Shown: piece after piece, positions 6,927 to 60,840 of the stretch
Position numbering within the stretch: position 1 is the stretch's first letter
Layout of the letters: each line of letters begins with the position of its first letter
Assembly (NCBI RefSeq): GCF_040581405.1
Contig: NZ_CP137157.1
Span: forward strand, 1,962,001 to 2,026,000
DNA length: 64,000 nt
Origin: Komagataeibacter sucrofermentans DSM 15973
GTDB lineage: Bacteria; Pseudomonadota; Alphaproteobacteria; Acetobacterales; Acetobacteraceae
Reading direction: 5' to 3'
Translations under genes and position numbers: made by a program
Notes under the pieces: generated by a model
The model's input: the letters and a program-made list of their open reading frames with translations, nothing else
The model's database searches: none
Told to the model about the DNA's origin: nothing

Positions 6927-6934
6927 ATGCGGCC

Positions 6935-6964
6935 TGTTGAAGCTTTTTGAAAAAAGCTTCAACA
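6935..6964. repeat. dispersed 3'-end repeat, single hairpin copy
   Basis: Perfect inverted repeat with 14-bp arms (6935-6948 and 6951-6964) around a 2-base centre; the core is GAAGCTTTTT/AAAAAGCTTC. It is the right-hand hairpin of the dispersed element seen complete at 23011-23096. It lies between the stops of the convergent ABC ATPase and msrA genes and could act as a terminator in both directions. Confidence 0.75.
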
Positions 6965-7532: not shown

Positions 7533-7557
7533 GGTGGCTGCCTTCCCTCAGTTAACG

Positions 7558-7615
7558 TGAAGCTTTTTCAAAAAGCTTCGAAAGAACGCCGCCCTTTTAA
7601 AAAAAAGCGGCGCCC
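7558..7615. repeat. dispersed 3'-end repeat, two-hairpin copy
   Basis: Two adjacent hairpins: GAAGCTTTTT/AAAAAGCTTC (7559-7579, one-base loop) and a GCCGC...GCGGC hairpin with a T/A-rich middle (7588-7611). It has the same modules and order as part of the copy at 23011-23096. It sits just past the valS stop and just upstream of msrA. Confidence 0.75.
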
Positions 7616-7631
7616 ATAAATTTCTGTTCCG

Positions 7632-13146: not shown

Positions 13147-13455
13147 ATGTGCATCAATATTTACGGAGGCGGCGTTATTGGAAGTTTTTTGAAAAAAGCA
13201 GGCCAGCGCCTGAATGCGGTACGGCGACTTCATCCATGACGGACATGCAGCAGGAAGTTGCGGCAAACACGATCACAATGATGCGAATACCGCCCCATCG
13301 CACCAACCTGTTAACGCCAGAAAACAGGGTGGGGTCTTATCTTCATGCGGCATCAGCGGGCAGGCCCGGACAACACAGCCATCCGATTTTTCCTGTGGGG
13401 TTGACTGCGCGGTGTCTGTTACATGAGGCAATATTGATCGACCGACAGGAAACCT
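13119..13455. other. intergenic region with degenerate repeat copy
   Basis: 337 bp between the TolC-family gene and the lipoprotein gene. After the terminator hairpin, 13166-13202 is a degenerate copy of the dispersed repeat (AGGCGGCGTTATTG then GAAGTTTTTTGAAAAAAGC). The rest should carry the lipoprotein promoter; no gene is supported. Confidence 0.5.
13166..13202 (+). repeat. degenerate copy of dispersed 3'-end repeat
   Basis: GGCGGCGTTATT followed by GAAGTTTTTTGAAAAAAGC matches the central part of the full element at 23011-23096 with several substitutions. It lies about 50 bp past the TolC-family stop. Confidence 0.55.
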
Positions 13456-19799: not shown

Positions 19800-20961
19800 G
19801 TCCGCATCGCTGCGCCAGCTTGGCCGTCTCGCCATTGCGCTGTTCCTCGCCTACATGGCCGTGGCATTGCCGCTGGCCGCCATACCGGTGGCCGTGCTGC
19901 ACTGGCCGGGTTACGGCAACGGGCTGGCTGGGCTTGCGGTGGGCATTGCTTTCTTTTCCACCATTCTCAGCCGCAACCACGCGGGCCAGATGGCCGATAC
20001 AAAAGGCGGCAGGCCGTGCATGCGCACGGGCCTGATGGTGTATGTCGCCGCCAGCCTGATCTGCGTGCTGGCAGCGCTTCCGGGCCTGAGCGATGGCGCG
20101 CGCTACGCCATCCTGATCATCGGCAGGCTCCTGCTGGGGGTGGGCGAAAGCCTGACCATTGTGGGCATGCTGGGCTGGGGCATAGGCCTGGTGGGGCAGG
20201 CGCGCGCGGGCCGCGTGCTGGCCTGGACCGGGGCGGCCATGTACGGCGCCTTTGCCGTGGGCGGCCCGATCGGGCTGGCGCTTTACCAGCATGCCGGGCT
20301 GGGCGGGCTTATGGGCGTGTCCGCCCTGCTGCCGCTGGTGGGGCTGGCGCTGGTGCACACCATACCCGCTACCCCGACCCATGCAGGCGGCAGGCCGCCA
20401 TTCTGGCAGGTTCTGGGCACCATTCGCTGGCAGGGCATGGCCGTGGCCCTTCAGGGCGTGGGCTTTGCGGCACTGGGCGCGTTCCTGCCGCTGCGCTTCA
20501 TTGCGGCGCACTGGCCTGGCGCCGGGCTGGGGCTGACCTGTTTTGGTACTGCCTTCGTGGCCGGACGCTTCGTGTGCGGGCATCTGCCCGACCGGATTGG
20601 CGGGCTGCGCGTTGCGCTGCTGTCGCTTGTGGTCGAGGCGGCGGGGCAATACCTGCTCTGGCTTGCTCCCTCACCCGTGCTGGCGCTGACGGGCGCGTTG
20701 CTGACCGGAGCGGGGTGCTCAATGGTCTTTCCCGCCCTCGGGGTCGAAGTGGTGCGGCTGGTTGCGCCTGCCATGCGGGCCACAGCACTGGGTGGCTTCG
20801 CGGCATTTCAGGATCTGGCCTATGGCGCCACCGGCCCACTGGCGGGGTTGCTGGCCGACCGGTGTGGCTACCCGGTCGTGTTCGTGCTGGGCGGGGCGTG
20901 CGCCACGCTGGGCGCGGGCATTGTGCTGGTACTGCTGAACGGCCAGCGGGCGGAGGCATGA
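19789..20961 (+). CDS. MFS transporter
   Basis: 390-residue major facilitator with about 12 hydrophobic segments. RNHAGQMADTKGGRPCMRTG is the loop 2-3 motif A region, and the order of segments resembles the YfcJ/YhhS-type efflux carriers. The start is a GTG inside the end of the ABM gene (11-bp overlap). UPF0261 starts one base after the stop. The tight packing indicates that the transported compound is the substrate or product of the neighbouring enzymes; direction of transport cannot be read from the sequence. Confidence 0.85.
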   Translation: MNSESASLRQLGRLAIALFLAYMAVALPLAAIPVAVLHWPGYGNGLAGLAVGIAFFSTILSRNHAGQMADTKGGRPCMRTGLMVYVAASLICVLAALPGLSDGARYAILIIGRLLLGVGESLTIVGMLGWGIGLVGQARAGRVLAWTGAAMYGAFAVGGPIGLALYQHAGLGGLMGVSALLPLVGLALVHTIPATPTHAGGRPPFWQVLGTIRWQGMAVALQGVGFAALGAFLPLRFIAAHWPGAGLGLTCFGTAFVAGRFVCGHLPDRIGGLRVALLSLVVEAAGQYLLWLAPSPVLALTGALLTGAGCSMVFPALGVEVVRLVAPAMRATALGGFAAFQDLAYGATGPLAGLLADRCGYPVVFVLGGACATLGAGIVLVLLNGQRAEA

Positions 20962-20962
20962 C

Positions 20963-22171
20963 ATGAGTTCTGGCCATGTTTACATTCTGGGTACCTGCGA
21001 CACCAAGCAGGCTGAACTGACCTATCTGCGCCAGACCCTGCGCGAGAGCGGAATTTCTGCGCTGATTGTCGATATCGGCACGCGGCATGCGGGGCGCGCG
21101 GCGGATATCAGCGCCCGTACTGTCGCCCGCTTTCACCCACGGGGAGAAGATTACGTCTTCTGTGGCGACCGGGGGCGGGCCATCGCTGCCATGGCCGAGG
21201 CGCTGCGCCTGTTTTTATGCGCACGCACCGACATGCGCGGCGTGCTGGCCATTGGCGGCTCAGGCGGCACGGCGCTGGTGGCCCCGGCCCTGCAGGCGCT
21301 GCCCATTGGCCTGCCCAAGCTGGTGGTCTCGACCGTGGCCTCGGGCAATACCGCGCCTTATGTTGGGGGTGCTGACATCGCCATGCTCTATCCGGTGACG
21401 GACATGGAGGGGCTGAACCGCATCTCACGCGTGGTGCTGGGCAATGCGGCCCACGCCATGGCGGGCATGGCACACACACCCTGCCACCCCACGCCCGACC
21501 CGCGCCCCGCCATTGGCCTGACCATGTTTGGCGTGACAACGCCGTGCGTGGAGCAGGTCGTGCACCAGCTTTCCAGCCGGTTTGACTGCCTTGTGTTTCA
21601 CGCCACCGGCACCGGCGGCCGCGCCATGGAGCGGCTGGCCGATGACGGGATGATAAGCGGCTTTATCGACACCACACTGACCGAGTTCTGCGATTACGTG
21701 GCAGGCGGCATTTTCCCCTGCGATGCCGACCGGCTTGGCGCCGTCATCCGCACGGGGCTGCCTTACGTGGGCAGTTGCGGCGGGCTGGACATAATCAATT
21801 TTGGCGCCCGCGCCAGTGTGCCCGCCCATTACAAAGACCGCGTGTTTGTCGAGCACAACCCCCAGATCACCCTCATGCGCACGAGCGCTGCGGAATGCCG
21901 GGCCATGGGCCACATGATTGGCCACCAGCTCAACCGCTGCCCCGGCGAAGTGCGCTTTCTCTACCCCGAGGGCGGTTTTTCCGTGCTCGACCAGCCCGGT
22001 GGCCCGTTTCATGACCCTGCCGCTGATGAAGCCTTTTATGCGGCCCTGACCGAAACACTGGAGCAGACCCCGCGCCGCAGGCTGATCCGCCTTCCCCATG
22101 CGATCAACGACCCGGCCTTTGCTGCGGCGCTGGCGCATGAATTTTTGCATCTTTATGGAGACCAGAACTGA
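20963..22171 (+). CDS. UPF0261 / Tm-1-like ATP-binding domain protein
   Basis: 402-residue protein of the UPF0261 family, the bacterial counterpart of the N-terminal part of tomato Tm-1. It starts [21 protein letters not shown], the family signature, followed by the glycine-rich [43 protein letters not shown], the ATP-site region of Tm-1-like proteins. [17 protein letters not shown] and [12 protein letters not shown] complete the family pattern. No enzymatic reaction is firmly established for bacterial members. Its stop shares one base with the start of the TIM-barrel gene. In plants and fungi these two proteins are fused, which supports a joint function. Confidence 0.9.
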
Positions 22172-23001
22172 TGCCCCGTATTCCCCGTAGTGAAATCCTG
22201 GCCCGCTTTCGCAGCATGATTGCCGCGCGCACGCCCATCGTGGGCGGTGGCGCGGGCACCGGCCTGTCCGCCAAATGCGAGGCGGCAGGCGGCATTGACC
22301 TGATCGTCATCTACAATTCCGGGCGTTACCGCATGGCGGGCCGTGGCTCGCTGGCGGGCCTGCTGGCCTATGGCAACGCCAACCAGATCGTGATGGACAT
22401 GGCGCGCGAAGTGCTGCCCGTGGTGCCCCACACCCCCGTGCTGGCCGGGGTGAACGGCACCGACCCGTTCGTGGATTTTGACGTGTTCCTTGATGACGTG
22501 AAGCGGGTCGGGTTTTCGGGCATCCAGAACTTTCCCACCGTGGGGCTGATTGACGGCAATTTCCGCAAGAACCTTGAGGAAACCGGCATGAGCTACAGCC
22601 TTGAGGTGGATGTGGTGGCCCGCGCCCACAAAAAAGACCTGCTGACCACGCCTTACGTGTTCGACCCCGCACAGGCGGTGGACATGGCCAGGGCGGGCGC
22701 TGACGTGCTGGTGGCCCATATGGGGCTGACGACAGGCGGCGCGATTGGCGCGGAGACGGCGCTGACGCTGGATGACTGCATTACGCAGATCAACGCGATC
22801 ATCGACGCCGCGCGCAGCGTGCGCCCCGACATCATCACCCTGTGCCATGGCGGCCCGATCGCCATGCCCGCCGATGCGCAGAAAGTGCTCGCGGCCTGCC
22901 CGGACTGCCACGGCTTTTATGGCGCATCGAGCATGGAACGGCTGCCGGTTGAAGTGGCGCTGACCGAGCAGACCCGCAACTTCAAGGCCCTGTCGCGCTG
23001 A
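22171..23001 (+). CDS. TIM-barrel PEP-hydrolase-family protein, partner of UPF0261
   Basis: 276-residue TIM-barrel protein of the family annotated as phosphoenolpyruvate hydrolase-like or TIM-barrel signal transduction protein. Segments: [47 protein letters not shown], then [40 protein letters not shown] and HMGLTTGG. It corresponds to the C-terminal half of Tm-1. The ATG overlaps the UPF0261 stop by one base. It is last gene of the operon and is followed within 10 bp by a full copy of the dispersed repeat. The substrate is unknown; the conserved Asn/Gly loops suggest a phosphorylated or carboxylated small molecule (inference). Confidence 0.9.
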
Positions 23002-23010
23002 AGATAAAAC

Positions 23011-23096
23011 AATAAAAGTTTTGGGATGCTGCCTTTTTTAAAAAGGCGGCGTTCTTTACGAAGCTTTTTGAAAAAAGCTTCGCCAAAAACTTTTAT
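23011..23096 (+). repeat. dispersed 3'-end repeat, complete reference copy
   Basis: The most complete copy in the window, 86 bp. The ends are imperfect inverted repeats: ATAAAAGTTTTGG on the left and CCAAAAACTTTTAT on the right. Inside are two hairpins: GCTGCCTTTTTT/AAAAAGGCGGC (23028-23050), then the linker GTTCTTTAC, then GAAGCTTTTT/AAAAAGCTTC (23060-23081). It lies between two convergent genes, and its right end supplies the TAA stop of the gene at 23093-23593. It has no coding capacity. Confidence 0.85.
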
Positions 23097-23593
23097 CCGG
23101 CTTCAGGCGGTCCCTCGGTCCATGGCTGCTGCTCGATCGCAGGGGGGCTGTTGGCGGGGCCGCACAGGGTACGGGCAAAACCATGCCGCACCCGCCCGTG
23201 GCGCAAGGGCAGCACAAGGGTTGCCGGTGTCTTGCATGCACCAGGATCAAACACATCACCTGAAACCCAGCGCAGGGCGGTTTTCATCTGCCCGCCCGCA
23301 GGCAGCACCATGGCCGGCGCAGGCACGGCCTGCTGCCATGTCACGGCAACGCGGTGGTGGCGGGCATCCTCAAACGCGAGCGGCTTCATGTGCGCAACCG
23401 AGCAGGCGCGCGCGCCGGTGTTGCGCACGATAACCCATGCGCCGCTGTGCATCATGCCATTGAATGCGCCCTGCCCGTCATCAAGGCTTAATGCCATCTG
23501 CCGTGCCTTGCAGTCAGGCACTGTCGTGGCCCGCGCCTGTAGCGGCAGGCTCCATAGCGTGAGGGCCAGCAGCCCCGCGATCCTGCCTTTCAT
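23093..23593 (-). CDS. secreted DUF4232-like protein
   Basis: 166-residue protein with a signal peptide (MKGRIAGLLALTLWSLPLQARA-T). The mature part has the pattern seen in DUF4232 domains: a Cys and basic start (PDCKARQMALSLDDGQGAFNGMMHSG), then WVIVRNTGARACSVAHMKPLAFEDARHH, a beta-sandwich with paired cysteines. Function is unknown. The ATG overlaps the stop of the upstream gene (ATGA), which itself overlaps the fluoride antiporter gene, so it is the third gene of a fluoride-riboswitch operon. The stop codon is contributed by the end of a dispersed repeat. Confidence 0.75.
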   Translation of the reverse strand: MKGRIAGLLALTLWSLPLQARATTVPDCKARQMALSLDDGQGAFNGMMHSGAWVIVRNTGARACSVAHMKPLAFEDARHHRVAVTWQQAVPAPAMVLPAGGQMKTALRWVSGDVFDPGACKTPATLVLPLRHGRVRHGFARTLCGPANSPPAIEQQPWTEGPPEAG

Positions 23594-24039
23594 GGTCCGG
23601 CCCGCACTGGCCCGGTGGGCGTTACGTCAAAATGCACCACGTGCCCGGTGGCAGGATCAAGGTGGCAGGCCCATGCAAAACCGAACCACTCAATGCCATT
23701 GGCCGCCCGCAGAAACTGCCCCCGCCCCGACACCAGCGCAGCACTTGCCACGACCTGACTGTCCGGCCCCGCATCCTGCAGAAAAAAGCGGTGCGGCTGG
23801 CTGCCCATGCGCACCAGCACACCACGTGCGGCATTCTGGCACAAAAAGGTGGTCATCTGCCACGCCATGTCCTGCCCCTGCACGGCGTGGCGCGTGGCGG
23901 GGTCAGCAATGCGGCTGATCTGCCGGTCGATGATCCGCTTTTCAGCCACGGAGGGGCCTGCCATGACAGCAGCACCACAGGCAGGCCGCAGCATGGCCAG
24001 CAGGCCCAGCCCGGCGCACAGGCAACGCATCGTGTTCAT
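23590..24039 (-). CDS. secreted hypothetical protein coupled to the fluoride antiporter
   Basis: 149-residue protein with a signal peptide (MNTMRCLCAGLGLLAMLRPACGAA). The mature part contains ISRIADPATRHAVQGQDMAWQMTTFLCQNAARGVL and a C-terminal half with WFGFAWACHLDPATGHVVHFDVTP; four mature-part features (two Cys, several Trp and Phe) suggest a small disulfide-bonded beta-rich periplasmic domain. I do not recognise the family. The start at 24039 overlaps the CLC-F stop (ATGA); the longer open frame reading in from 24426 is antisense-like noise inside clc. It is also coupled to the DUF4232-like gene downstream. Confidence 0.7.
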   Translation of the reverse strand: MNTMRCLCAGLGLLAMLRPACGAAVMAGPSVAEKRIIDRQISRIADPATRHAVQGQDMAWQMTTFLCQNAARGVLVRMGSQPHRFFLQDAGPDSQVVASAALVSGRGQFLRAANGIEWFGFAWACHLDPATGHVVHFDVTPTGPVRAGP

Positions 24040-25376
24040 GTTTTTGATCCCCCTATGCGGACCTGCCGCAGCGCCATGCCAGTCATGGTGCCCGCGTGAT
24101 GCCGCTTGGGCACGGCAACGCGCTGGGACAGGTAGATACCCGAATGACCCGAGCACATATAGGCCACGAAACAGCCCGTGGCGAAATAGACGATATCTGC
24201 CGTGCCGAACAGTTCCACCCCCATGAGCGTACAGGCCAGCGGCGTATTGGCCGCCCCCGCAAATACCGCGACAAACCCCACCCCTGCCAGCAAATCCGCC
24301 GGGGCGTGCAGCAACGGGGCCAGCGCATTGCCCAGACCCGCCCCGATGAAGAACAGTGGCGTGACCTCGCCGCCCTTGAAGCCCGCCGCCAGCACGACCA
24401 CCGTAAAGACCAGCTTCCAAGCCCATGCCAGCGGATAATGCCCAGCCCCGAAGAAGTCGCTGATCGACGCTCCGCCCGCCTCGGGTGCGATAATGCCCAG
24501 CCCCAGATAATCACGCGAGCCGCACAGCCACACCAGCGCTATGGTGGCAATCCCGCCCAATGCGGGCCGCAGCCACGCAATCGGGCATAGCTGCCGCAGG
24601 CGGGCTGCCAGCCGGTGCACCGATTCCGCAAATACGAGGCTGGCCAGCCCGAAGGCCACCGCCGCCACCATGACCTTGCCCAGAAGCAGCAGGTCGGCAT
24701 GAAAAAAATGTCCATCCGGCCCTGCGTAGCCCTGAAAGGCCAGATGATAGGGCACATGCTCGATGCCCCAGGCATGGCATGCCCAGTCCGCCACGATGGC
24801 GCTTACGGCCACGGGCACCAGGGCATCATAATCAATGCGCCCCACCCGGATCACTTCCATGCCGAACACCGCCCCCGCCACCGGCGTGCCGAACACGGCG
24901 GAAAACCCCGCCGCGATGCCGGACATGAGCAGAACCCGGATTTCGTACGGGTTGGTCAGCCGCCACACCCGCCCCACCGTGCTGGCAATGCTGCCGCCCA
25001 TCTGCACCGCCGTGCCCTCGCGCCCGACCGATGCCCCGAACAGGTGGCTGACCACCGTGCCAATGAGCACCAGCGGCGCCATGCGCAGGGGCACGCCGCC
25101 GCCGGGTGCGTGAATCTGGTCCACGATTAGGTTATTGCCCCCCTCCGCCGCGCGACCAAAAACGTGATAGAGCCCCCCCACGGCAACACCCGCCACCGGC
25201 AGGGCGTAAAGCAGCCACGGGTGCAGCAGGCGTGTGTGCGCCGCCTGGTCGAGCAGCCACAAAAACAGGGCGCACAGCGTGCCCACGCAGGCCGCCATGG
25301 GCAGCAGCAGACTGGCCCATCTGAGCAGCCCCCCCGACTGGCGGGCCACAGCCCGCGCAAGTGCAACGATATTCAT
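24036..25376 (-). CDS. CLC-F type fluoride/proton antiporter
   Basis: 446-residue CLC-family membrane protein of the fluoride-exporting branch. The selectivity loop reads GGNNL (residues 79-83) where chloride CLCs have GSGIP; the Asn replacing Ser is the hallmark of CLC-F. GREGT (118-122) holds the gating glutamate, and FGTPVAGAVFGMEVIRVG is the next conserved helix, with Met preceding Glu-Val as in CLC-F. The start MNIVALARA is chosen because upstream in-frame sequence is riboswitch leader. It exports F- in exchange for H+, protecting against cytoplasmic fluoride trapping in acid, which is relevant to an acid-producing bacterium. Two small secreted-protein genes overlap downstream. Confidence 0.92.
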   Translation of the reverse strand: MNIVALARAVARQSGGLLRWASLLLPMAACVGTLCALFLWLLDQAAHTRLLHPWLLYALPVAGVAVGGLYHVFGRAAEGGNNLIVDQIHAPGGGVPLRMAPLVLIGTVVSHLFGASVGREGTAVQMGGSIASTVGRVWRLTNPYEIRVLLMSGIAAGFSAVFGTPVAGAVFGMEVIRVGRIDYDALVPVAVSAIVADWACHAWGIEHVPYHLAFQGYAGPDGHFFHADLLLLGKVMVAAVAFGLASLVFAESVHRLAARLRQLCPIAWLRPALGGIATIALVWLCGSRDYLGLGIIAPEAGGASISDFFGAGHYPLAWAWKLVFTVVVLAAGFKGGEVTPLFFIGAGLGNALAPLLHAPADLLAGVGFVAVFAGAANTPLACTLMGVELFGTADIVYFATGCFVAYMCSGHSGIYLSQRVAVPKRHHAGTMTGMALRQVRIGGSKT

Positions 25377-25493
25377 GATATTTACGCTAAACCCGGCATT
25401 CAGGATGGAACAGCAGGCCAGCCAGCCTGCTCGTGGATCATGGCTGTACGATACGCTACACGGACTCCTCCCCTTGTTGCCATAAAGGCAGTG

Positions 25494-25560
25494 GGCAGGA
25501 ATCATCAGCCCCCTTGCGGGCAGCGGTTCGACCAGCATGGTCCGGCAGAATCCATTGCCG
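25494..25560 (-). promoter_or_regulatory. fluoride riboswitch (crcB motif)
   Basis: The minus-strand leader of the CLC-F gene contains the fluoride aptamer. The first stem CGGCA/TGCCG encloses the loop ATGGATTC, and the ACCGC joining element is followed by the stem GCCC-GCAA-GGGGC and the invariant GGCTGATGATTCCTGC. These match the natural consensus (GAUGGnnUUC, ACCGC, CUGAUGAUnCCUnC). An extra small hairpin, GACCA-TGC-TGGTC, is inserted between the stems. A TGCC-TTTA-GGCA hairpin follows at about 25479-25491. The distance to the ATG is about 115 nt. Fluoride binding should turn on the operon. Confidence 0.88.
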
Positions 25561-25637
25561 TATTCATTTAAAAAAGCCCGTATCGCCCTGAGGGTCAACT
25601 ATGGAAATACGTGGCCCGGCAGCCCCCGTCCTTCCCC

Positions 25638-25692
25638 CAATAAAAAGAACGCCACCTTTTGAAAAAAAGGCGGCACCCCAAAACTTTTATTA
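25638..25692 (-). repeat. dispersed 3'-end repeat, left-half copy
   Basis: Inverted relative to 23011-23096: AAGAACGCCACC...GGCGGC followed by ACCCCAAAACTTTTATT. It contains the GC-flanked hairpin and the outer arm but not the GAAGC hairpin. It lies just after the 2-hydroxyacid dehydrogenase stop. Confidence 0.75.
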
Positions 25693-25723
25693 TCTTTCAA
25701 GCACCTTGTGCCAGTTTTCGAAT

Positions 25724-26668
25724 TCAGTATCCCCGCCTGGTGTCGCACAGCAGGGCGGGCCGCTCGTTGCGCTCCAACTGCCCGATCACCTCCACCACAT
25801 AACGCGCCTGTGCCTCCCGTGAGGCTTCAGAGGCCACATGCGGGGTAATGGTCACGCGCTCATGGCGCCATAACGGATCATCGGGTGGCAGGGGTTCGGG
25901 CGCCACCACATCAAGCACCGCGCCGCCGAGCACGCCCTCATCAAGCGCGCGCAGCAGGTCGGCCTGCACCACATGGTCGCCACGCCCGACATTGACCAGC
26001 CCGGCCCCGCGCGGCAGTTGCGCCAGCAGGGCATAATCGATCATGCCGCGCGTCTGCGGCGTGCTAGGCAGCAGGTTGACCACAATATCCACATCACGCA
26101 AAAAATCGGGCAGCCCTGAAGGCCCGGCAAAAGTGCGGATGCCCGGCACCACCTGCGCCGAACGCCGCCACCCCGAAACCTGAAAGCCGACCTGAAGCAG
26201 CTTGCGGCCCACATGCGCGCCCAGGTGCCCCATGCCCATTATGCCCACGCGGGTCTGGCTGCTGGTGGGCGTGCTGGTGCGCGGGTTATGCCATTGATGC
26301 GCATTTTGCTGCACGGCCCATGTCCGCCCCCCGCGCAGCAGGCCGAGCGTGGCCCACAACACGTAATCAGCCATCAGCGCCGCTGTCTGTTCACCCCCCA
26401 TGCGCACGAGGGGCACATGCCGCGGAAAGACAGGATTATCGAGCAGATGATTGACCCCGGCCCCCGTGCAGATGATGGCCCGCATGCCCCCCATGCGGGC
26501 AAGGTCATCTGCCGTGGGGTTCCATATCAGCGCATAATCATCAGCCGTGATTTCCAGCGCCGGGTCGTGCCATGCGGCAACGGGCAGATCGGGTGCAACA
26601 TGCTGAAAGGCGGCGCGCCACCCGGGCATGGCGGCAGGTCCGTCAGAACTGATGACAAGCCTTGGCAT
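25724..26668 (-). CDS. GhrA-like glyoxylate/hydroxypyruvate reductase
   Basis: D-isomer-specific 2-hydroxyacid dehydrogenase of the short GhrA branch, 314 residues, which reduces glyoxylate or hydroxypyruvate with NADPH. The Rossmann motif GMGHLGAHVGRKL is followed by the substrate segment VNLLPSTPQTRGMID. The catalytic Arg is in NVGRGDHV, with Glu in PEPLPPDDPLW and His in TITPHVASE. ATG 26668 is preferred because GGAGAAGA precedes it at ideal spacing; ATG 26680 is also in frame. The amidinohydrolase gene lies 30 bp upstream on the same strand, so the two are probably co-transcribed. Confidence 0.88.
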   Translation of the reverse strand: MPRLVISSDGPAAMPGWRAAFQHVAPDLPVAAWHDPALEITADDYALIWNPTADDLARMGGMRAIICTGAGVNHLLDNPVFPRHVPLVRMGGEQTAALMADYVLWATLGLLRGGRTWAVQQNAHQWHNPRTSTPTSSQTRVGIMGMGHLGAHVGRKLLQVGFQVSGWRRSAQVVPGIRTFAGPSGLPDFLRDVDIVVNLLPSTPQTRGMIDYALLAQLPRGAGLVNVGRGDHVVQADLLRALDEGVLGGAVLDVVAPEPLPPDDPLWRHERVTITPHVASEASREAQARYVVEVIGQLERNERPALLCDTRRGY

Positions 26669-26698
26669 TTCTTCTCCCATTCCGTGTCCTGCAGCCCT

Positions 26699-27571
26699 TC
26701 AGGCTGGCAGGAGAGATTTACGGCGCAGAGGCATGGTCATGCAATGAATGCTACCCCCGCCCTGCGAAAACTGGTCAAGGGCCGGGTCAAGCACGCGCAG
26801 CCCCTCGGCGCGCAGCATCTGGTTGATGCGTGTGCAATGGCGCGGGCTGACCACGCGCTCGCGCCCGAGGGCCAGCACGTTGCAGCCCATGTCGCGCATG
26901 GCCTCCTTGTAACTGACCGGCAGCAGACGGATGCCCTGGGCGCGGAACCAGTCCAGGTCTTCATCGGCAATCACATCCACCGCCGCGATGGCAAGGTTCT
27001 CGGCCACCATGGTGAAGATGACGTCAAGATGCAGGAAGTGCTCGGGGAAGCGGATCATGCGGCACGTCCAGCCTGCCGCCTCGAACCAGTTGATGAACTC
27101 GGCGGCACCCGCCTCGTCCGTGCGGCCTCCGCTTACGCCCACCGCCAGCAGGCCAGGGCGGATGATATGGATGTCGCCTCCTTCGATATGGCCTGTGGTG
27201 CAGGTCCGCCATATCTCGTCAGGGGCGTAGAATTCATGGATCGGCCTGATCTCGGCCCGGCGCTCGGGGCGGGCAAGACGGGTGACCACGGTGCCGAATG
27301 GCGTGGTCTGTGAACTGTCGCGGGTATAGACCTCGTAGGGCATGCCCTCATGCGGGGTCAGGTAATGACAGGCGACCTGCTCTCCCTCCAGTGCAGCCAC
27401 GAGTTCGCGGAACTGCGCCCCCAGCGCGGCCCGGTCGATGCGCGCGCCACGCGCCATGCTGCTGATGGCGATGTCATTGCTCGGTATCCACGCATAATGA
27501 TCGGGGGGGCAGAGCAGCACGTCAGCCAGTTCGCCTGTTTCACTATCGATAAACCAGCGATTTGCCGCCAT
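26699..27571 (-). CDS. amidinohydrolase of the DDAH/arginine deiminase superfamily
   Basis: 290-residue beta/alpha-propeller guanidine-modifying enzyme. The conserved residues are seen in order: RDSS (84-87), EGGDIH (130-135), His181 in FLHLDVIF and the nucleophile Cys277 in GGSIHCMTMPL. Such enzymes hydrolyse dimethylarginine, arginine or agmatine-like substrates. The N-terminus (ELADVLLCPPDHYAWIPSND) resembles the dimethylarginine dimethylaminohydrolase group. It is upstream of and probably in one transcript with the GhrA-like reductase. The exact substrate cannot be fixed from sequence. Confidence 0.85.
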   Translation of the reverse strand: MAANRWFIDSETGELADVLLCPPDHYAWIPSNDIAISSMARGARIDRAALGAQFRELVAALEGEQVACHYLTPHEGMPYEVYTRDSSQTTPFGTVVTRLARPERRAEIRPIHEFYAPDEIWRTCTTGHIEGGDIHIIRPGLLAVGVSGGRTDEAGAAEFINWFEAAGWTCRMIRFPEHFLHLDVIFTMVAENLAIAAVDVIADEDLDWFRAQGIRLLPVSYKEAMRDMGCNVLALGRERVVSPRHCTRINQMLRAEGLRVLDPALDQFSQGGGSIHCMTMPLRRKSLLPA

Positions 27572-27726
27572 ATGCCTGTTATCCTTTACCGTTCAAACAT
27601 TACGATAGCGGATATACCTGCCCCTTCAAGATACCAATAAGCCGGAGTTTACTTTAGCCGCAGGCAAACTGTGCCGTGATCGCCGGCGCCGCCTGCCTGC
27701 CGCGCCAGATGCGTGGCGCGGGATTG

Positions 27727-28269
27727 TCAGCTATTCGCGCCAAAGGCCGGGCGGGTTGATTCGAACAGGAACCATGTGCGGCGCTCGGTCTCGTCGATCC
27801 AGTTTTCGAGCAGGCTGGCTGTCGCCACGTCATTGCCTTCGTCGCACACGGCATGGACGGCACGCAGGCGCGCGGTCAGGGCCAGGTTATCCTCGCGCAG
27901 TTCAGCCAGCATGTCCTCGGGCGTCACATACTCGGCATCGTTATCGGCCACTTTGGTCAGCCGCGCGATCTCGCCCACCGAATGCAGGGTATTGCCCCCG
28001 ATCTTGCGCGCACGCTCGGCCAACGGGTCTGTCATGGCGAAGATCTGGCTGCTCTGCTCATCAAGCAGCAGGTGATAATCGCGGAAATGGCGGCCACTCA
28101 TATGCCAGTGGAAGTTCTTGGTCTTGATATAAAGCGCAAAAACATCGGCCAGGACCGCTTTCAGCCCTGCCGCGATGTCACGCACCGCCTCGTGCGTGAG
28201 GTCGGTTGGCGTGCCGAGATAGGTCCGTACGTGGGCCGCGCCTACTGCGGCTGCCTTGTCTGTCATCAT
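27727..28269 (-). CDS. dps: Dps family ferritin-like protein
   Basis: Dodecameric mini-ferritin that oxidises and stores iron and protects DNA from hydrogen peroxide. The 180-residue chain has the ferroxidase signature KNFHWHMSGRHFRDYHLLLDEQ (residues 51-72) and a C-terminal NWIDETERRTWFLFES helix. A short N-terminal tail carries one Lys. ATG 28269 and ATG 28266 are adjacent and GGAG precedes both. The upstream region shared with the divergent unknown gene contains a Fur-box-like palindrome, in keeping with iron-responsive control. Confidence 0.92.
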   Translation of the reverse strand: MMTDKAAAVGAAHVRTYLGTPTDLTHEAVRDIAAGLKAVLADVFALYIKTKNFHWHMSGRHFRDYHLLLDEQSSQIFAMTDPLAERARKIGGNTLHSVGEIARLTKVADNDAEYVTPEDMLAELREDNLALTARLRAVHAVCDEGNDVATASLLENWIDETERRTWFLFESTRPAFGANS

Positions 28270-28378
28270 GATCTCCGTGGTTTGTCATCGGGCCGGACAC
28301 GGGCGCAGGTGCTGCGTCAGCGTCCCTGCGCCCCCAACGCACGGAGGGTGACAGGGTTCATGCCTGCCGTTTTTGTAT

Positions 28379-28399
28379 TGCAATTGATATTCGTTTGCA
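28379..28399. promoter_or_regulatory. Fur-box-like palindrome
   Basis: GCAATTGATATTCGTTTGC (28380-28398) matches 12 of 19 positions of the classical Fur box and has TGCAA...TTGCA at its ends, the form common in alphaproteobacterial Fur/Irr sites. It is placed between dps (minus) and the unknown gene (plus), so it could serve either. Confidence 0.45.
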
Positions 28400-28479
28400 T
28401 TAACTGTCAGCTTACTCACGGCGTTATCAGGCAGTTTTCCCAACCGTCGATTTCCCAGCACAGGGCCGTGAAAACTCAT

Positions 28480-28519
28480 GCGGCATCGCCAACCCGTTCC
28501 GGCGATGCCGCCCCTTTTT
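28480..28519 (+). terminator. intrinsic terminator in the leader of the 325-residue unknown gene
   Basis: GCGGCATCGCC (28480-28490) and GGCGATGCCGC (28501-28511) form a perfect 11-bp stem with a 10-base loop, followed by CCCTTTTT. It is a textbook Rho-independent terminator on the plus strand, ending 21 bp before the ATG at 28541. There is no plus-strand gene upstream for it to terminate, so it looks like a leader attenuator or the end of a small RNA. Confidence 0.7.
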
Positions 28520-28540
28520 CTTTCCCGCAGGGATCATGCC

Positions 28541-29518
28541 ATGAGCGAGACAACAGGCTGCACGGCCGATTGGCACCTTGAACATTCCACCCCCGACCAG
28601 TTGCTGCATTACCTTGATCCCCATTACCCCTTTGCCCGGCAGGCCAATGTGCTGGCCCAGCGCTTCAGGGACGTGCAGGCTTTATGCGACGGCGGCGAGG
28701 CAACGCCCGCGCTGACCCGGTTGCGCAATGCGCTGGCGTTCCATCTGATCAAGCTCTCGCGGTGGTGGCGGTTTGATTTCTGCCCGCGCGGGGTCACGGG
28801 GGTGAACAACCCGCAGTTCCTCAGCTACGTCAAGAACCATGCCGAACGCAGCGTTGATGATGAAAGCCTGCTCGACGCCTTTACCGCGCAGCGTTACATG
28901 CACGCGGGCGATGGTGGTCATATCGCCATACTGGCCCATGATCCGCTGACCGACCCCACGATTTCCATCCTGTATGGCGTGGACGGCCAGCGCGCGTTCC
29001 GGTTTGCAACCAGTTCACACGATGCCGAGCCATTATGGAACGGACAGGCCTACCCTGATTTTGCCTCGGCCTGGCTTGCGGCGCGCACGGTGCATGCGCT
29101 CGCCTGCGATGACAGCACGGACATGCATGAATTCAAAACCGCGCAGCGCGAGCATATGTGGGCGCGCGCCTGGCACCGGCAGCACTTCCACCGCAGCCGC
29201 AAGCTGCCGCTCATCCAGCTTTATGCGCAGGCACAGGCACAGCTTTCCAACTGCCAGTCGGCCTTTGGCCGCGCGGAAATGAAAACCGTGGCCGACCGCC
29301 TGGCCTTTACCCTGGCGCAGACCGCCTTCCAGCGGCGCATGACCGTGGCTGACCTGATTGAGGAGAGCGACATGCTGGCCATCAACCTGCGTGCCGCCAA
29401 CACCATAAAGCAGCGCGCGCGGGCTTATGTGGCGACATGCATCGACCCCGCCCTGAGGCCCGAGATGGATATCCTGCTGGACCGCGTGGTCTCTTACGTG
29501 CCCCGGCGGTGCCCCTGA
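28541..29518 (+). CDS. hypothetical protein, 325 residues
   Basis: Not recognised. A soluble-looking protein with no signal peptide or membrane segment. It begins MSETTGCTADWHLEHSTPDQLLHYLDPHYPFARQANVLAQRFRD and is rich in His, Trp and Arg. The middle has ILAHDPLTDPTISILYGVDGQRAFRF and the C-terminal third is helical and basic (HMWARAWHRQHFHRSRKLPLIQLYAQAQAQL). The start at 28541 is supported by CAGGGATC before it, and by the terminator that occupies the longer frame. It is divergent from dps across a Fur-like site, so an iron- or stress-linked role is possible, but this is only context. Confidence 0.7.
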   Translation: MSETTGCTADWHLEHSTPDQLLHYLDPHYPFARQANVLAQRFRDVQALCDGGEATPALTRLRNALAFHLIKLSRWWRFDFCPRGVTGVNNPQFLSYVKNHAERSVDDESLLDAFTAQRYMHAGDGGHIAILAHDPLTDPTISILYGVDGQRAFRFATSSHDAEPLWNGQAYPDFASAWLAARTVHALACDDSTDMHEFKTAQREHMWARAWHRQHFHRSRKLPLIQLYAQAQAQLSNCQSAFGRAEMKTVADRLAFTLAQTAFQRRMTVADLIEESDMLAINLRAANTIKQRARAYVATCIDPALRPEMDILLDRVVSYVPRRCP

Positions 29519-29524
29519 GCGCAT

Positions 29525-29577
29525 GACAAAAAGAACGCCGCCTTTTTGACAGAAGGCGGCACCCAAAACTTTTATTT
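29525..29577 (-). repeat. dispersed 3'-end repeat, left-half copy
   Basis: AAAAAGAACGCCGCCTTTTTG...AAGGCGGC then ACCCAAAACTTTTATTTT: the GC-flanked hairpin plus outer arm, in the same orientation as 25638-25692. It lies between two convergent stop codons. Confidence 0.75.
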
Positions 29578-29592
29578 TACGGGACGCGCGTT

Positions 29593-30363
29593 TTACTGCG
29601 CGGTATAGCCGCCATCAATAACCAGTTCGCTGCCGGTCATGAACTTTGATTCGTCCGATGCCAGGAACACGATGCCGTAGGCAATGTCATCCGGCTCGCC
29701 CAGATGACCAAGCGGGTGCAGGTCGATCAGCTTCTGCCGGGCGGCAAGCTGGTCCGGGGTCGCGGCGGTCAGGCCCTGCACCATGGGGGTCCAGATATAG
29801 CCGGGGTGAACGGAGTTGACGCGGATCTTGTAGCCCGCCTTGGCGCAGTGCAGCGCTGCCGATTTGGTGAACAGCCGCACGCCGCCCTTGCTGGCATTAT
29901 AGGCCGCGAGCGTGGGGTCACCCACCAGTCCCTCGATGGAGGACAGGTTGATGATCGACCCGCCGCCATGCGGCTTCATGGCCTCGATGGCGTAGCGCGT
30001 GCCTAAAAACACACCATCCAGATTGACCGACTGCACGCGCCGCCACTCTTCAAGGCTGGTCTGTTCGACCGTGCCGGTATAGGCGATGCCAGCATTGTTG
30101 ACCGCAATATCCAGCCGCCCGAAACGGGCCTGCACGGCGGCCATGGCCTGCTGCCAGCTTGCCTCATCGGTTACGTTGAGGGTCACGAACATCGCCTCGC
30201 CGCCAGCGGCTTCAATTTCGGCCACCACGGCCTCGCCTTCGGTTTCCTTGAGGTCGGCTATGACAACTTTCGCCCCCTCGCGGGCCAGAAGCTGGGCCGT
30301 GGCCCGGCCAATGCCAAGTGCTGCCCCGCTGACAAGGGCGACTTTTCCCGATACGCGTCCCAT
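29593..30363 (-). CDS. SDR family NAD(P)-dependent oxidoreductase
   Basis: 256-residue classical short-chain dehydrogenase. The cofactor motif is SGAALGIGR (12-20), NNAG is at 89-92, the catalytic Ser is in INLSSIEG, and Tyr155 and Lys159 are in YNASK. ADLKE at the end of beta-2 (Asp37) points to NAD(H) preference. Close in pattern to the glucose/cyclohexanol/secondary-alcohol dehydrogenases of the family. No pathway neighbour identifies the substrate. It is encoded alone, convergent with the unknown gene. Confidence 0.88.
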   Translation of the reverse strand: MGRVSGKVALVSGAALGIGRATAQLLAREGAKVVIADLKETEGEAVVAEIEAAGGEAMFVTLNVTDEASWQQAMAAVQARFGRLDIAVNNAGIAYTGTVEQTSLEEWRRVQSVNLDGVFLGTRYAIEAMKPHGGGSIINLSSIEGLVGDPTLAAYNASKGGVRLFTKSAALHCAKAGYKIRVNSVHPGYIWTPMVQGLTAATPDQLAARQKLIDLHPLGHLGEPDDIAYGIVFLASDESKFMTGSELVIDGGYTAQ

Positions 30364-30483
30364 GAATACTCTCCTGCTTTTCCATGAACCTGCGCGCAGG
30401 CGCCTCAGAAATCGAGCCGTCTTGTCCGCCAGGTTTTCGCTACCCTGCCGGATCCGCTCTTACGCCTCAATGACACGCGTCAG

Positions 30484-30539
30484 GTTCTTTTAAATATGAA
30501 CAACGGCCTGAAGCAGCCGGATTTCATATTTAAAAGAAC
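30484..30539. repeat. long perfect inverted repeat upstream of a dispersed repeat copy
   Basis: GTTCTTTTAAATATGAA (30484-30500) and its exact reverse complement (30523-30539) make a 17-bp stem. The 22-base spacer carries a further small stem CGGC/GCCG. It lies between rfbA (3' side) and the SDR promoter side, and its right arm runs directly into the next repeat copy. Confidence 0.7.
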
Positions 30540-30592
30540 ACCGCCCTTTTTCTCAAAAGGGCGGCATCCGGAATCTTTTATTATTTACAGAT
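30531..30592 (-). repeat. dispersed 3'-end repeat, left-half copy
   Basis: AAGAACACCGCCCTTTTTC...AAAAGGGCGGC then ATCCGGAATCTTTTATT. It is the GC-flanked hairpin with diverged outer arm, 20 bp after the rfbA stop. Confidence 0.7.
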
Positions 30593-30610
30593 GCAGCCCC
30601 CGCTCAGGCC

Positions 30611-32583: not shown

Positions 32584-32705
32584 TTCCTACTCCCTCCCCC
32601 TTGCCGCGCCAGCCAGGCCAGACGCCCGGGGCAGTGCGGCAGGCCAATTATTTTGCATGGACGTGCCGGACGGAAATATTGGCAATCATATCAGACCCAT
32701 CACTA

Positions 32706-32723
32706 CTTAACGCTACAGTTAAG
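32706..32723. promoter_or_regulatory. short inverted repeat upstream of rfbB
   Basis: CTTAAC (32706-32711) and GTTAAG (32718-32723) around 6 bases, in the gap between the acyltransferase stop and the rfbB start. The region is AT-richer than its surroundings and likely holds the rfbBA promoter. Operator role is a guess. Confidence 0.3.
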
Positions 32724-32800
32724 GGGGCTTATATGTCATAAATATGAACAAAATCCCTTTAACCATGCCCGGACTGGTAAAAGGCTGACCCTGCGCCGCT

Positions 32801-33952: not shown

Positions 33953-34003
33953 GTGATTCCCCCTTCAGAGATTGCCTGAACAACAACTCATCAACAAAAA
34001 AAC

Positions 34004-34094
34004 TATAAAAGCTACCGGATGCCGCCTTTATTTCAAATCAGGCAACATGCGCTGAAGCCGCGCGGCGCGGACTTCACCAAAAACTGATTTATAC
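34004..34094 (+). repeat. degenerate full-length dispersed repeat
   Basis: Outer arms CTATAAAAG...CCAAAAACTGATTTATA, an interior GGATGCCGCCTTTA and a GAAGC...GACTTC remnant follow the module order of 23011-23096 over about 90 bp, with many substitutions. It lies downstream of the export-lipoprotein gene. Confidence 0.55.
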
Positions 34095-55975: not shown

Positions 55976-56860
55976 ATGCTCAAATCGATCCTTGTCACCG
56001 GTGGTAGCGGCCAGCTTGCCAGCGCCCTTGCCGCCCAGGGCGATGTAAAACGGGCTGGCCGCCCCGGTTTTGATTTTGAACGGCCTGACACGATTGATGC
56101 CGCCTTCCGCGCGGCAGCGCCCTCCATTGTCGTCAATGCCGCCGCCTGGACCGCCGTTGACGCCGCCGAGACCCACGAGGCGGAAGCCGAACGCGCCAAC
56201 AATACCGGCCCCGCCCATCTGGCCGCCCTGTGCCATGAACGGGGCATTCCCTTCATTCATATCTCGACTGACTACGTGTTCAGCGGCGACAAGGGCAGCC
56301 CCTATGTCGAGACCGACCCGGTTGACCCGCGCTCGGTCTATGGCCGCACCAAGGCGGAAGGCGAGCAGGCCGTGCTTGATGCCCACCCTGACAGCATCAT
56401 CCTGCGTACGGCCTGGGTCTATTCGCCCTATAACCGCAATTTCGTGCGCACCATGGTCAATGCCGCTGCACAGCGCCCGGTTCTGCGCGTGGTGAGCGAC
56501 CAGAGCGGCAACCCCACCAGTGCCGACCAACTGGCTGATGTCATTTTCAGGATCATCGCCCGCATTGAGGAAAACGGCTGGAAAGCGGAATACGCCGGTA
56601 TTTTCCATGCCGTGGGCGAAGGGGCGACAAGCTGGTACGAACTGGCCCGCACCGCCATTACGGCTGCCGCCCGCCGGGGCAACCCATTGCCCGAGATCGA
56701 GCCTATCACTACGGCGGACTGGCCCACGCCCGCCCGCAGGCCGCCCGATGCAAGGCTGGACTGCACGCGCCTCAAGCAGGTCTTTGGTTGCGCTCCCGGT
56801 CCGTGGGCACCGGAGGTGGACCGGGTTGTGGGCGAGATCATGAAGCAGGAACAGAAGTAA
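55976..56860 (+). CDS. rfbD: dTDP-4-dehydrorhamnose reductase
   Basis: 294-residue SDR-type reductase, last step of dTDP-L-rhamnose synthesis. It starts ILVTGGSGQLASALAAQGDV; ISTDYVFSGDKGSPYVE, the catalytic YGRTKAEGE (Tyr and Lys) and RTAWVYSPYNRNFVRTM match the family. The TAA stop lies at the very start of a full dispersed repeat. It ends the plus-strand operon acyltransferase-wzy-GH5-rfbC-rfbD. Confidence 0.95.
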   Translation: MLKSILVTGGSGQLASALAAQGDVKRAGRPGFDFERPDTIDAAFRAAAPSIVVNAAAWTAVDAAETHEAEAERANNTGPAHLAALCHERGIPFIHISTDYVFSGDKGSPYVETDPVDPRSVYGRTKAEGEQAVLDAHPDSIILRTAWVYSPYNRNFVRTMVNAAAQRPVLRVVSDQSGNPTSADQLADVIFRIIARIEENGWKAEYAGIFHAVGEGATSWYELARTAITAAARRGNPLPEIEPITTADWPTPARRPPDARLDCTRLKQVFGCAPGPWAPEVDRVVGEIMKQEQK

Positions 56861-56942
56861 AAACATTTCCGCGTGCCGCCTTTTTCAAGGCGGCATTTTT
56901 CTCAGCATCCTGAAAAAAGCTTTACCAAAACTTCTTACATTT
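56857..56942 (+). repeat. dispersed 3'-end repeat, full-length diverged copy
   Basis: AGTAAAAACATTTCC at the left, the hairpin TGCCGCCTTTTTC/AAGGCGGCA, then CTGAAAAAAGCTTTACC and AAAACTTCTTACA at the right. Same length and order as 23011-23096. The rfbD stop codon falls inside its left arm; the next gene's stop is about 10 bp past the right end. Confidence 0.7.
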
Positions 56943-59395: not shown

Positions 59396-60778
59396 ATGTC
59401 CACCCACGCGACAACGCCCATCCTCATTGCTGGTGGCGGCCCTGCGGGCATCGCCATCCTGCTTGCCGCCTCCCGCCTCGGCCAGTTGCCCCACCTGCTT
59501 GATGCGGGCGTGACCCTGGTTGAACAGGGCAGCACGATCGGCTCTGGCATGCTGGGGCGCTATGTCATCAATTCCGACAGCGCGGCCGAAACCTTTGTCG
59601 ATGCCATTACAGCCAACCCCGTGCCCGAACTTGCCCGCCTGACCCACCACCCCCTGGTGGAAATGATCCGCAGCAAGGGCAGGCAGCCCCTGCCGCTACG
59701 CATCGTGGCGGATTTCCTTGATGTGGTGGGCCATGTGCTGACCGAGATCATCGCAGCCCATCCCGCCTCCCGCCTGCTCACCGGCTGGCGGCTTGAAACC
59801 CTGACCCGGCAGGCTGATGGCGGCTGGCTGGCCGATCTTGCCGCAACCCGTGGGGGGCACAGGCAGCAGGTAATTACGAGCAAGGTGGTGCTGGCCCTTG
59901 GCGCCTGCCAGCCCGAAGCACGCCTTTATACCGAGAACGTGGCGGGCCGCCCCCTGCTGCCGCGCTACGAGGGGCATATCGTGCAATCCGATGCCCTGCT
60001 GGCCCCCGAGGGCATGCACACCCTGCGCGCCATGCTGGCCGGATGCGAAAAACCCAGGATCACCATTATTGGCGGCGCGAGCAGCGCCCTGTCATCGGCC
60101 AATGTCATTCTGCGCGACATGGGCGAGCGGATCGCGCCGGGGCACCTCACACTTCTGCACCAGTCCCAACTCAAGCTGTTCTACCGCACGGCGGAGGAGG
60201 CACAGGCCGACGGGTATGCCGATTTTACGGCCAGCGACATCTGCCCGGTCAGCCAGTTCGTGCATCGCTTTGGTGGGCTGCGTTATGATTCGCGCAATCT
60301 GGCCATGCGCCTGATGGGCATTGCGGGCGCCCCGCCCGAGCCGCGCCTGCACGCGCTGCGCATGACACCGGACAATAACACGCAGATACAGCACCTTCTG
60401 GATCACTCAGATGCCATTATCGCCTGCCTGGGCTATAGCCCGAAGCGCGTGTGCGTGCAGGACACCAACGGCCAGCCCATCGCCCTTGCGGCAGACCAGC
60501 CCCAGGGCGCCCTGACGGGTGCGCATTGTGGCATTCTCGATCAGGCGGGGCATGAAATTCCGGGCCTGTTTGGCATTGGCCTGGCCTCGGGCTTCAGGCC
60601 ATCGGGGGCCATGGGGGGGGAAGCCAGCTTCCGCGGGCAGGTCAACAGCCTGTGGCTGTGGCAGAACGCCATCGGGGAAAGAATACTGGCGCATATCCTG
60701 CCCCCTGCGGCCCGCGCACGTTCCTCTCCCGTGCCGACGCGGCCGTTTGACCTCGCGCGCGGGCATGTGCATCTTTAA
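59396..60778 (+). CDS. FAD-dependent oxidoreductase / putative monooxygenase
   Basis: 460-residue flavoprotein. It has an N-terminal dinucleotide motif ILIAGGGPAGIAILLAASRLGQ (about 10-31) and a second one, ITIIGGASSALSSANVIL (about 222-239), in the two-domain layout of SidA/PvdA-like N-hydroxylases and related flavoprotein monooxygenases. The C-terminal IPGLFGIGLASGFRPSGAMGGE resembles the closing FAD segment. Start 59396 is chosen for the clean Rossmann N-terminus. Likely co-transcribed with the aminotransferase, suggesting a joint small-molecule pathway. The exact reaction is unknown. Confidence 0.78.
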   Translation: MSTHATTPILIAGGGPAGIAILLAASRLGQLPHLLDAGVTLVEQGSTIGSGMLGRYVINSDSAAETFVDAITANPVPELARLTHHPLVEMIRSKGRQPLPLRIVADFLDVVGHVLTEIIAAHPASRLLTGWRLETLTRQADGGWLADLAATRGGHRQQVITSKVVLALGACQPEARLYTENVAGRPLLPRYEGHIVQSDALLAPEGMHTLRAMLAGCEKPRITIIGGASSALSSANVILRDMGERIAPGHLTLLHQSQLKLFYRTAEEAQADGYADFTASDICPVSQFVHRFGGLRYDSRNLAMRLMGIAGAPPEPRLHALRMTPDNNTQIQHLLDHSDAIIACLGYSPKRVCVQDTNGQPIALAADQPQGALTGAHCGILDQAGHEIPGLFGIGLASGFRPSGAMGGEASFRGQVNSLWLWQNAIGERILAHILPPAARARSSPVPTRPFDLARGHVHL

Positions 60779-60832
60779 AAAATCAATGTTTTTTCCAGAG
60801 TGCCGCCTTTTACAAAGGCGGCGTTTTTCATA
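60776..60832 (+). repeat. dispersed 3'-end repeat, left-half copy
   Basis: TAAAAAATCAATGTTTTTTCC followed by the hairpin TGCCGCCTTTTA/AAAGGCGGC and GTTTTTCA. The FAD gene's TAA stop is the first three bases. It lies between convergent genes. Confidence 0.7.
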
Positions 60833-60840
60833 CCGCCAGT

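Follow-up and report, generated by a model that had tools for sequence, protein, structure and literature searches.

The locus under study lies in a 64,000-nucleotide stretch of the Komagataeibacter sucrofermentans DSM 15973 genome (hereafter the window), which sits on the 2.95-Mb chromosome C1, one of five contigs. De novo gene calls place here two convergent genes ending at 23001 (plus strand) and 23093 (minus strand); the protein of the upstream gene is 99% identical to its Komagataeibacter xylinus NBRC 15237 counterpart, and the minus-strand gene matches DUF4232. Between them sits an 85-bp core, the best window copy of a dispersed hairpin-forming family (Table 1). Its computed fold reaches −38.2 kcal/mol against −16.7 ± 3.1 for shuffled sequences (z −6.9; 0 of 200 shuffles as low) and takes the form of a three-way junction: the outer stem pairs as ATAAAAGTTTT(T)GG/CCAAAAACTTTTAT and is joined by hairpin 1, which has a GC foot, and by hairpin 2 (GAAGCTTTTT). 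The TTA at 23093–23095, inside the CTTTTAT of the right arm, is the TAA stop codon of the minus-strand gene. In K. xylinus K2G30, the orthologue of the gene at 22171–23001 has no copy behind it, and a different downstream region starts directly past the stop codon.

Table 1. Coordinates of the element and its copies within the window
Feature	Position	Strand	Evidence
85-bp core, best window copy, three-way junction	23012..23096	+	91.4 bits, E 8.7e-25; fold
Outer stem, left arm ATAAAAGTTTTGGG (consensus ATAAAAGTTTTTGG)	23012..23025	+	sequence, fold, alignment
Hairpin 1, GC foot and T/A top, then TTCTTT	23027..23051	+	fold; covarying stem
Hairpin 2, GAAGCTTTTTG/AAAAAAGCTTC	23060..23081	+	fold; covariation analysis
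Outer stem, right arm CCAAAAACTTTTAT	23083..23096	+	sequence, gene calls
Hairpin-2-only copy, 51-bp convergent spacer	6934..6960	+	23.3 bits, E 0.0003
Two-hairpin copy, downstream of gene 7632–10328 (−)	7548..7627	−	60.5 bits, E 1.9e-15
Short form, hairpin 1 and GTTCTTTTTATT, terminator-like on minus strand	25638..25690	−	33.5 bits over 25601–25690
Short form, convergent spacer	29525..29575	−	24.3 bits over 29508–29564; terminator-like match
Short form, downstream of gene 30611–31510 (−)	30530..30581	−	22.6 bits over 30507–30581; terminator-like match
Degenerate borderline copy	34005..34092	+	16.1 bits, E 0.05
Degenerate near-full copy, convergent spacer	56859..56937	+	25.1 bits, E 9e-5
Remnant, hairpin 1 alone (GTGCCGCCTTTT..AAAGGCGGCGTTTTT), convergent spacer	60776..60835	+	model match absent in window
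Claimed copy at chance level	13166..13209	+	10.5 bits, E 2.4

A sequence-only reading of the window had listed ten copies. Using a covariance model built from 30 aligned, single-orientation genome copies (with rough E-values), we recovered seven of these at E < 0.001 (those listed at 6935, 7558, 23011, 25638, 29525, 30531 and 56857), while 34004 was borderline, 13166 scored at chance level and 60776 was unmatched by the model. We read the last as a family remnant because several sister genomes carry recognisable members at the same gene end. As that reading had stated, each of the ten follows a stop codon. Five (6935, 23011, 29525, 56857 and 60776) separate convergent genes, five occupy tandem spacers, and none falls inside a called gene or between divergent genes (56857 and 60776 start within the stop codon); the stop codons at 23093, 56858 and 60776 do fall in element sequence, the second of these being the TAA (56858–56860) of a plus-strand gene. 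The genes around the 6934..6960 copy end at 6926 (plus) and 6978 (minus), and the copy at 25638..25690, a 15-pair terminator-like match, lies downstream of gene 25724–26629 on the minus strand. The terminal inverted repeats that had been described were found with the sequences claimed, but they are inner repeats of the 85-bp core and not transposon ends.

The family also proved modular, with hairpin-2-only copies, hairpin-1-only copies and short forms in which hairpin 1 is followed by GTTCTTTTTATT or its left half is fused to the right half of hairpin 2. Such partial copies may reflect internal deletion between short direct repeats of the hairpins, which their structure fits. A generic terminator scan of positions 20000–36000 lists the three short window copies second to fourth. 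At the orthologous gene end of the 29525 copy, FXV3, diospyri and intermedius have unrelated GC hairpins instead. A separate feature of this region is a fluoride riboswitch (RF01734, 38 bits) at 25489–25568 on the minus strand, upstream of the minus-strand gene 24036–25298.

The figure of about ten copies holds for the window alone. The best 40 of 238 blastn candidates from the same genome span most of 88 bases at 85–100% identity, and the covariance search of the whole genome, a check proposed with the original observation, placed the family at no fewer than 150 sites, each scoring at least 32 bits; among the best 150, 149 are chromosomal and one lies on contig C2. When the best 149 chromosomal copies are divided by fifths of distance from C1 position 1, they number 57, 38, 35, 11 and 8; the best copies are thus concentrated toward the origin, and the GC skew changes sign near C1 position 1. 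This gradient, being drawn from the best 150, may reflect intactness more than number.

Relatives carry matches as well. At E 1e-4, and among the matches listed, the family was detected in every one of the 19 genomes representing the genus, in 1 of 17 further genomes of the family set and in 0 of 24 from other families (best 75 candidates scored), and 12 of 36 named genomes had no match among those listed (best 125 candidates). Match counts for these other genomes are rough, as both strands of one place can count twice. All tested Komagataeibacter (13), Novacetimonas (3) and G. entanii carry matches; within Acetobacter only musti, sicerae and UBA5411 do so among the matches listed, and three Gluconobacter have three to four places each. 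Because copies outside Komagataeibacter are patchy yet near-consensus, this distribution suggests that the family has spread horizontally outside that genus. Six plasmid records contain matches, and according to the public tables, which are incomplete, the best place is never under an annotated feature: the copies on plasmids H3, H4, H6 and H7 lie between convergent genes (H6 and H7 represent the same site in two strains), that on H2 lies 50 bp past an IS630 transposase gene, and that on H5 has no annotated gene within 2 kb. Phages gave no match to the element; seven viral contigs match a hairpin-2 pattern. Gluconacetobacter takamatsuzukensis has a distant palindromic relative with another hairpin 2, comprising a GTTCTTTTTTGAAAAAAAGAAC hairpin and CCAAAAAACTTTT (loci L143, L147 and L151). 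In Acetobacter musti, the near-identical core has different arms around it and belongs to a longer repeat whose ends resemble GAGGCTGTTTCAGAA/TTCTGAAACAGTCTC (loci L194–L204); two repeat families here have one core in common.

None of 26 good copies has a target duplication flanking the 85-bp core, and the search was therefore moved further outward. There it emerged that the 85-bp element forms the inner part of a non-autonomous transposon, a MITE, of about 162 bp; of the earlier alternatives, "MITE- or REP-like", the MITE half thus stands, for a mobile unit larger than the element then described, and the REP half falls, with neither a RAYT nor a GTAG foot. Full units measure 156–165 bp (23 units printed with their flanks), too short for a transposase gene, and are bounded by 15-bp terminal inverted repeats GAGACTGTTTGAAAA/TTTTCAAACAGTCTC, of which GAGACTGTTTGAAAA begins some 35 bp ahead of the core and TTTTCAAACAGTCTC ends some 42 bp past it. 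This longer symmetry was first visible in plasmid copies. A pattern scan found the end GAGACTGTTTGAAAA in 16 of 23 genomes (reversed control, 0), in pairs often framing about 162 bp, and paired ends are often about 147–149 bp apart, start to start. Equal 3-bp flanks accompany 20 of 23 strict full units. With laxer ends (at most three mismatches), 37 full units were collected, two of which were removed by a motif filter and one because it shared another's flank; in the remaining 34, among which L270 and L293 still have one flank in common and from which six one-ended loci were excluded, 23 have equal flanks (TTA 14, TAA 5, TGA 2, TCA 1 and ATA 1). The sole C2 copy among the best 150 is a complete MITE (C2:39169–39330; C2 is 228 kb) with the target duplication TTA. 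Three full MITEs have crosswise shared flanks: L270 (genome G063) has one 40-bp flank in common with L293 (on C2) and the other with L214 (on an N. hansenii plasmid), which is suggestive of plasmid recombination at the MITE.

Empty sites, which the earlier reader had proposed to look for in sister strains, were found clean at two loci. At the first, one genome (G003) reads ..CCATAA-MITE-TAA.. where four genomes, the window genome included, read ..CCATAAGG..; the insertion falls on the stop codon predicted for a convergent gene. At this same locus, another genome (G015) has a copy with a broken right end, and L329 is empty too, with the triplet changed. At the second, ..GCATAA-MITE-TAATACGG.. 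corresponds to the empty GCATAATACGG. Insertion into a stop codon leaves the gene undamaged because the duplication restores the stop codon. Some more distant species carry armless cores at the gene end of the first locus, most xylinus-group genomes are empty there and two have MITE copies; some shared sites have been re-occupied and not inherited.

As for the mobilising enzyme, IS5-family insertion sequences of 883–884 bp with similar ends are present in the window genome (L326, with a transposase matching NF033580) and in a relative (L319). One end of L319 agrees with the MITE end at 13 of 15 positions and L326 at fewer, the 3-bp flanks being unequal in both; an autonomous insertion sequence with identical ends gave no convincing match in the DNA of the genomes examined. 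We infer that the MITE is moved by an IS5-family transposase because IS5-family elements with similar ends occur in related genomes. Elements of the IS1031 group duplicate TNA at their target. The IS630 beside a plasmid copy was considered as a partner and set aside, its visible ends not matching. The unit resembles IS5-family MITEs in being short, non-coding and flanked by a TNA-type 3-bp duplication, and differs from them in its 85-bp terminator-like core, which outlives the ends and is near-identical in the differently armed repeats of A. musti.

Placement relative to genes was assessed on de novo, uncurated gene calls in the window, in 400 kb around the origin of the window genome, in 400 kb of a sister genome (G061) and in 210 kb of A. 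musti (where calls cover only 73%), after loci below 20 bits were dropped (four in the window genome, three in the sister). Around the origin, 52 copies were present, of which 51 could be classified (one at the edge): 31 convergent, 18 tandem, 2 divergent and none in genes. Convergent spacers make up 10.4 of the 66.6 kb of intergenic DNA there (16%), and the excess of copies in them is pronounced (binomial p 3e-13). The sister genome gave 34 convergent, 22 tandem and 4 divergent among 60 copies, again with none in genes (convergent spacers, 27% of intergenic bases; p 9e-7). A. musti gave 17 convergent, 15 tandem, 1 divergent and 1 edge copy among 34, with none in genes (26% of intergenic bases; p 0.001), and for several of these copies the closest called gene is hundreds of bases away. 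Both the absence from gene interiors and the placement at 3′ ends noticed in the window therefore extend over 464 kb of its own genome, 400 kb of the sister and 210 kb of A. musti, where copies are not as common inside genes or at 5′ ends as at 3′ ends. Seen from the side of the spacers, those of at least 15 bp between convergent genes hold a copy in 31 of 43 cases around the origin and in 31 of 41 in the sister.

The 34 full MITEs follow the same pattern, with 12 convergent, 11 tandem, none divergent and none in genes, and 11 without two callable neighbours. The target triplet alone fails to explain the absence from genes, because 44–50% of T(T/A)A sites are coding: these triplets are 50% coding, 7% convergent, 31% tandem and 11% divergent in the 400 kb around the origin, and 44%, 20%, 25% and 12%, respectively, in the sister. 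Against random triplets, 0 of 23 classified MITEs in genes has p 1e-7 (window genome) and 2e-6 (sister). For the 12 of 23 in convergent spacers, the comparison with non-coding triplets gives p 2e-5 and 0.07, respectively, neither background being exact because the MITEs come mostly from other species. Predicted TAA stop codons were hit by 4 of 19 T(T/A)A insertions versus 3% of such sites in the window genome (p 0.003 in a post hoc test). The target may be read together with some feature of gene 3′ ends, or insertions elsewhere may be purged fast.

The element had further been proposed to act as a bidirectional terminator, and this part finds no support in the terminator signature. Under a rule demanding a stem of at least seven pairs with four GC, a loop of 3–9 and at least five T in eight, copies pass on the sense strand (hairpin 1 first) in 18 of 41 cases and on the antisense strand in 0 of 41 in the window genome, and in 19 and 1 of 48 in the sister; the term is unsupported because the signature is essentially one-stranded. 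For comparison, the rule is passed by 18 of 134 other gene 3′ ends and by 0.5% of random 102-mers, and more than half of the copies fail it. Directly after the copy at C1:16186 comes a further hairpin with a T-run. In tandem spacers, the sense orientation accounts for 14 of 18 copies in the window genome, 12 of 22 in the sister and 9 of 15 in A. musti, a weak excess in genomes that are not independent. We found no sign that copies replace other terminators: another terminator-like hairpin is present in 9 of 31 convergent spacers with a copy versus 3 of 12 without (sister, 9 of 31 versus 2 of 10). Because copy-bearing spacers are not poorer in other terminators, function is something we can only infer; the element is likely a terminator that prefers one direction and a 3′-end hairpin in both orientations.

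In the stretches examined, most chromosomal cores have lost their MITE arms. Restricting the count to well-matched cores (45 bits or more), we could still identify the left arm in 3 and the right arm in 7 of 41 copies in the window genome, and each arm in 8 of 48 copies in the sister. The two genomes share 28 sites with full cores, 24 in the same orientation and 4 inverted. The 24 same-orientation orthologous cores are on average 89.6% identical versus 81.7% for paralogs, and adjacent 30-mers from the same genome pair are 83.3% identical when non-coding (n = 26) and 89.5% when coding (n = 13); the ortholog is the best cross-match for 14 of the 24 cores. The four inverted pairs, all convergent, have identities of 0.79, 0.92, 0.74 and 0.93, with 19, 1, 26 and 4 closer non-orthologous copies, respectively; they lie at positions 94979, 224478, 322111 and 336186 of the 400-kb string of the window genome, and two of them exceed 91% identity, as if flipped in place. 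In-place inversion as a general process was considered and rejected; 4 of 28 pairs are inverted, and re-insertion explains two of them at least as well. Across 56 cores from several genera, we counted 37 two-sided pair changes versus 18.8 ± 3.6 in shuffled and 14–21 in slid structures, a contrast weakened by the kinship of the copies. The covariation is clearest in hairpin 1, of which Gluconobacter has the versions TTCCGCC/GGCGGA and GTCGCC/GGTGAC. With arms gone, core retained and stems covarying, these data lend indirect support to the proposed recruitment of the core as a 3′-end hairpin.

We consider it probable, on this comparative evidence, that an IS5-type MITE lands at gene 3′ ends, that its arms decay and that the core is kept as a useful 3′ hairpin. 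By our gene calls, insertions lie at the 3′ ends of genes, many of them in convergent spacers, and some coincide with the stop codon itself; in the stretches examined, most chromosomal copies have no arms left, and their core persists as three stems with compensatory changes or has shrunk to hairpin 1 and a T-run. Retention would follow from the usefulness of the transcribed hairpin at a 3′ end: hairpin 1 with GUUCUUU(U) would serve as a Rho-independent terminator when a copy lies in the sense orientation, and in either orientation the 3′ hairpins may limit exonucleolytic mRNA decay as well as read-through into the opposing gene. A bolder version, which we hold only tentatively, is that the transposon has remade transcript 3′ ends across the genus: it would target stop codons and convergent ends, deliver a terminator or decay-blocking hairpin and then become domesticated, its ends decaying while selection maintains the hairpins. 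Near the origin, some seven of every ten convergent spacers measuring 15 bp or more hold a copy.

These readings must be weighed against that of a plain selfish MITE, which lands or survives at 3′ ends since it is harmful elsewhere, and whose core is the youngest, most clonal or mobility-needed part and not used by the host. Placement at 3′ ends is already complete in full, young MITEs and may thus reflect insertion bias or purging and not use; the lack of depletion of other terminators and the patchiness in Acetobacter and Gluconobacter point the same way. However, compensatory changes in the stems, core conservation above that of adjacent non-coding DNA after the mobility ends have gone, and remnants that keep hairpin 1 with its T-run alone are less readily accommodated, and we regard a purely selfish origin as a serious possibility that falls short of an even chance. 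Alternatively, the armless 85-bp core could be a repeat that moves on its own, bounded by 14-bp inverted ends, of which an IS5-type MITE later captured one copy. MITE arms have left no trace in most of the chromosomal copies examined, the Gluconobacter copies are armless at sites common to three species in genomes without MITE ends, and the near-identical A. musti core carries other, longer arms. We nevertheless think this unlikely, given that the 26 good copies have no duplication at the core ends, that no empty site was seen there and that some chromosomal copies keep one or both arms; we know of no transposase for such 14-bp core ends.

That the stable three-way junction with its covariation instead marks a structured regulatory RNA or sRNA family residing in 3′UTRs strikes us as improbable: no Rfam family was detected on the window element at the gathering threshold, copies face either way along the gene almost freely, and at one orthologous site the two cores are inverted with respect to each other at 93% identity. 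Least credible of all is an element of REP/BIME type mobilised by a RAYT (Y1) transposase; it would share the short palindromic, extragenic and many-copy character of the family but is contradicted by the full unit, with its inverted ends of 15 bp and target duplications of 3 bp. PF01797 (Y1_Tnp) has no match in the window genome (control matches in 5 of 14 genomes) and the foot of the consensus hairpin bears no GTAG/CGTC tag, on which grounds a REP/RAYT origin was rejected.

Several known repeat families invite comparison. Correia, NEMIS and EFAR elements are MITE-like, structured when transcribed and in some cases near gene ends. The closest published parallel by design, compared here through its published description alone, is SPRITE of Streptococcus pneumoniae, described as a Rho-independent-terminator-like repeat near CDS 3′ ends, with 15 of 30 copies convergent and co-option as a terminator suggested (PMC3049150). 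SPRITE has 30 copies and simple AAAA/TTTT ends, with neither target duplication nor empty site established in that description (PMC3049150), whereas the Komagataeibacter family counts 150 copies or more, folds into a three-way junction and shows 15-bp ends, target duplications, empty sites and stop-codon insertions. BOX and RUP of pneumococcus, as described in the same source, are likewise MITE-like, structured when transcribed and in part near gene ends (PMC3049150); these two, like Correia, NEMIS and EFAR, differ in their ends and hosts, a separation made by description and not by sequence. REP/BIME and GTAG/CGTC repeats are similarly extragenic palindromes in many copies with a possible 3′-end role, but the Komagataeibacter family has neither a RAYT nor the GTAG/CGTC tag, and CGTC repeats have been reported missing in Acetobacteraceae (PMC3733652). 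Searches of the open PMC literature gave no paper on this family among the results inspected. As far as they reach, what is new comprises a mobile unit with defined boundaries, insertions into stop codons together with their empty sites, and a core that outlives its ends.

That mobile repeats supply bacterial 3′ ends is called conceivable for MITEs in a 2024 review (PMC10969869). The family described here offers a natural series, running from fresh MITE insertions at stop codons, with documented empty sites, to old armless hairpins at orthologous gene ends, which makes the idea of mobile repeats as a source of bacterial 3′ ends directly testable. The genus concerned is used for cellulose production, and its annotation calls for caution: "terminators" and some stop codons in Komagataeibacter can be transposon-derived.
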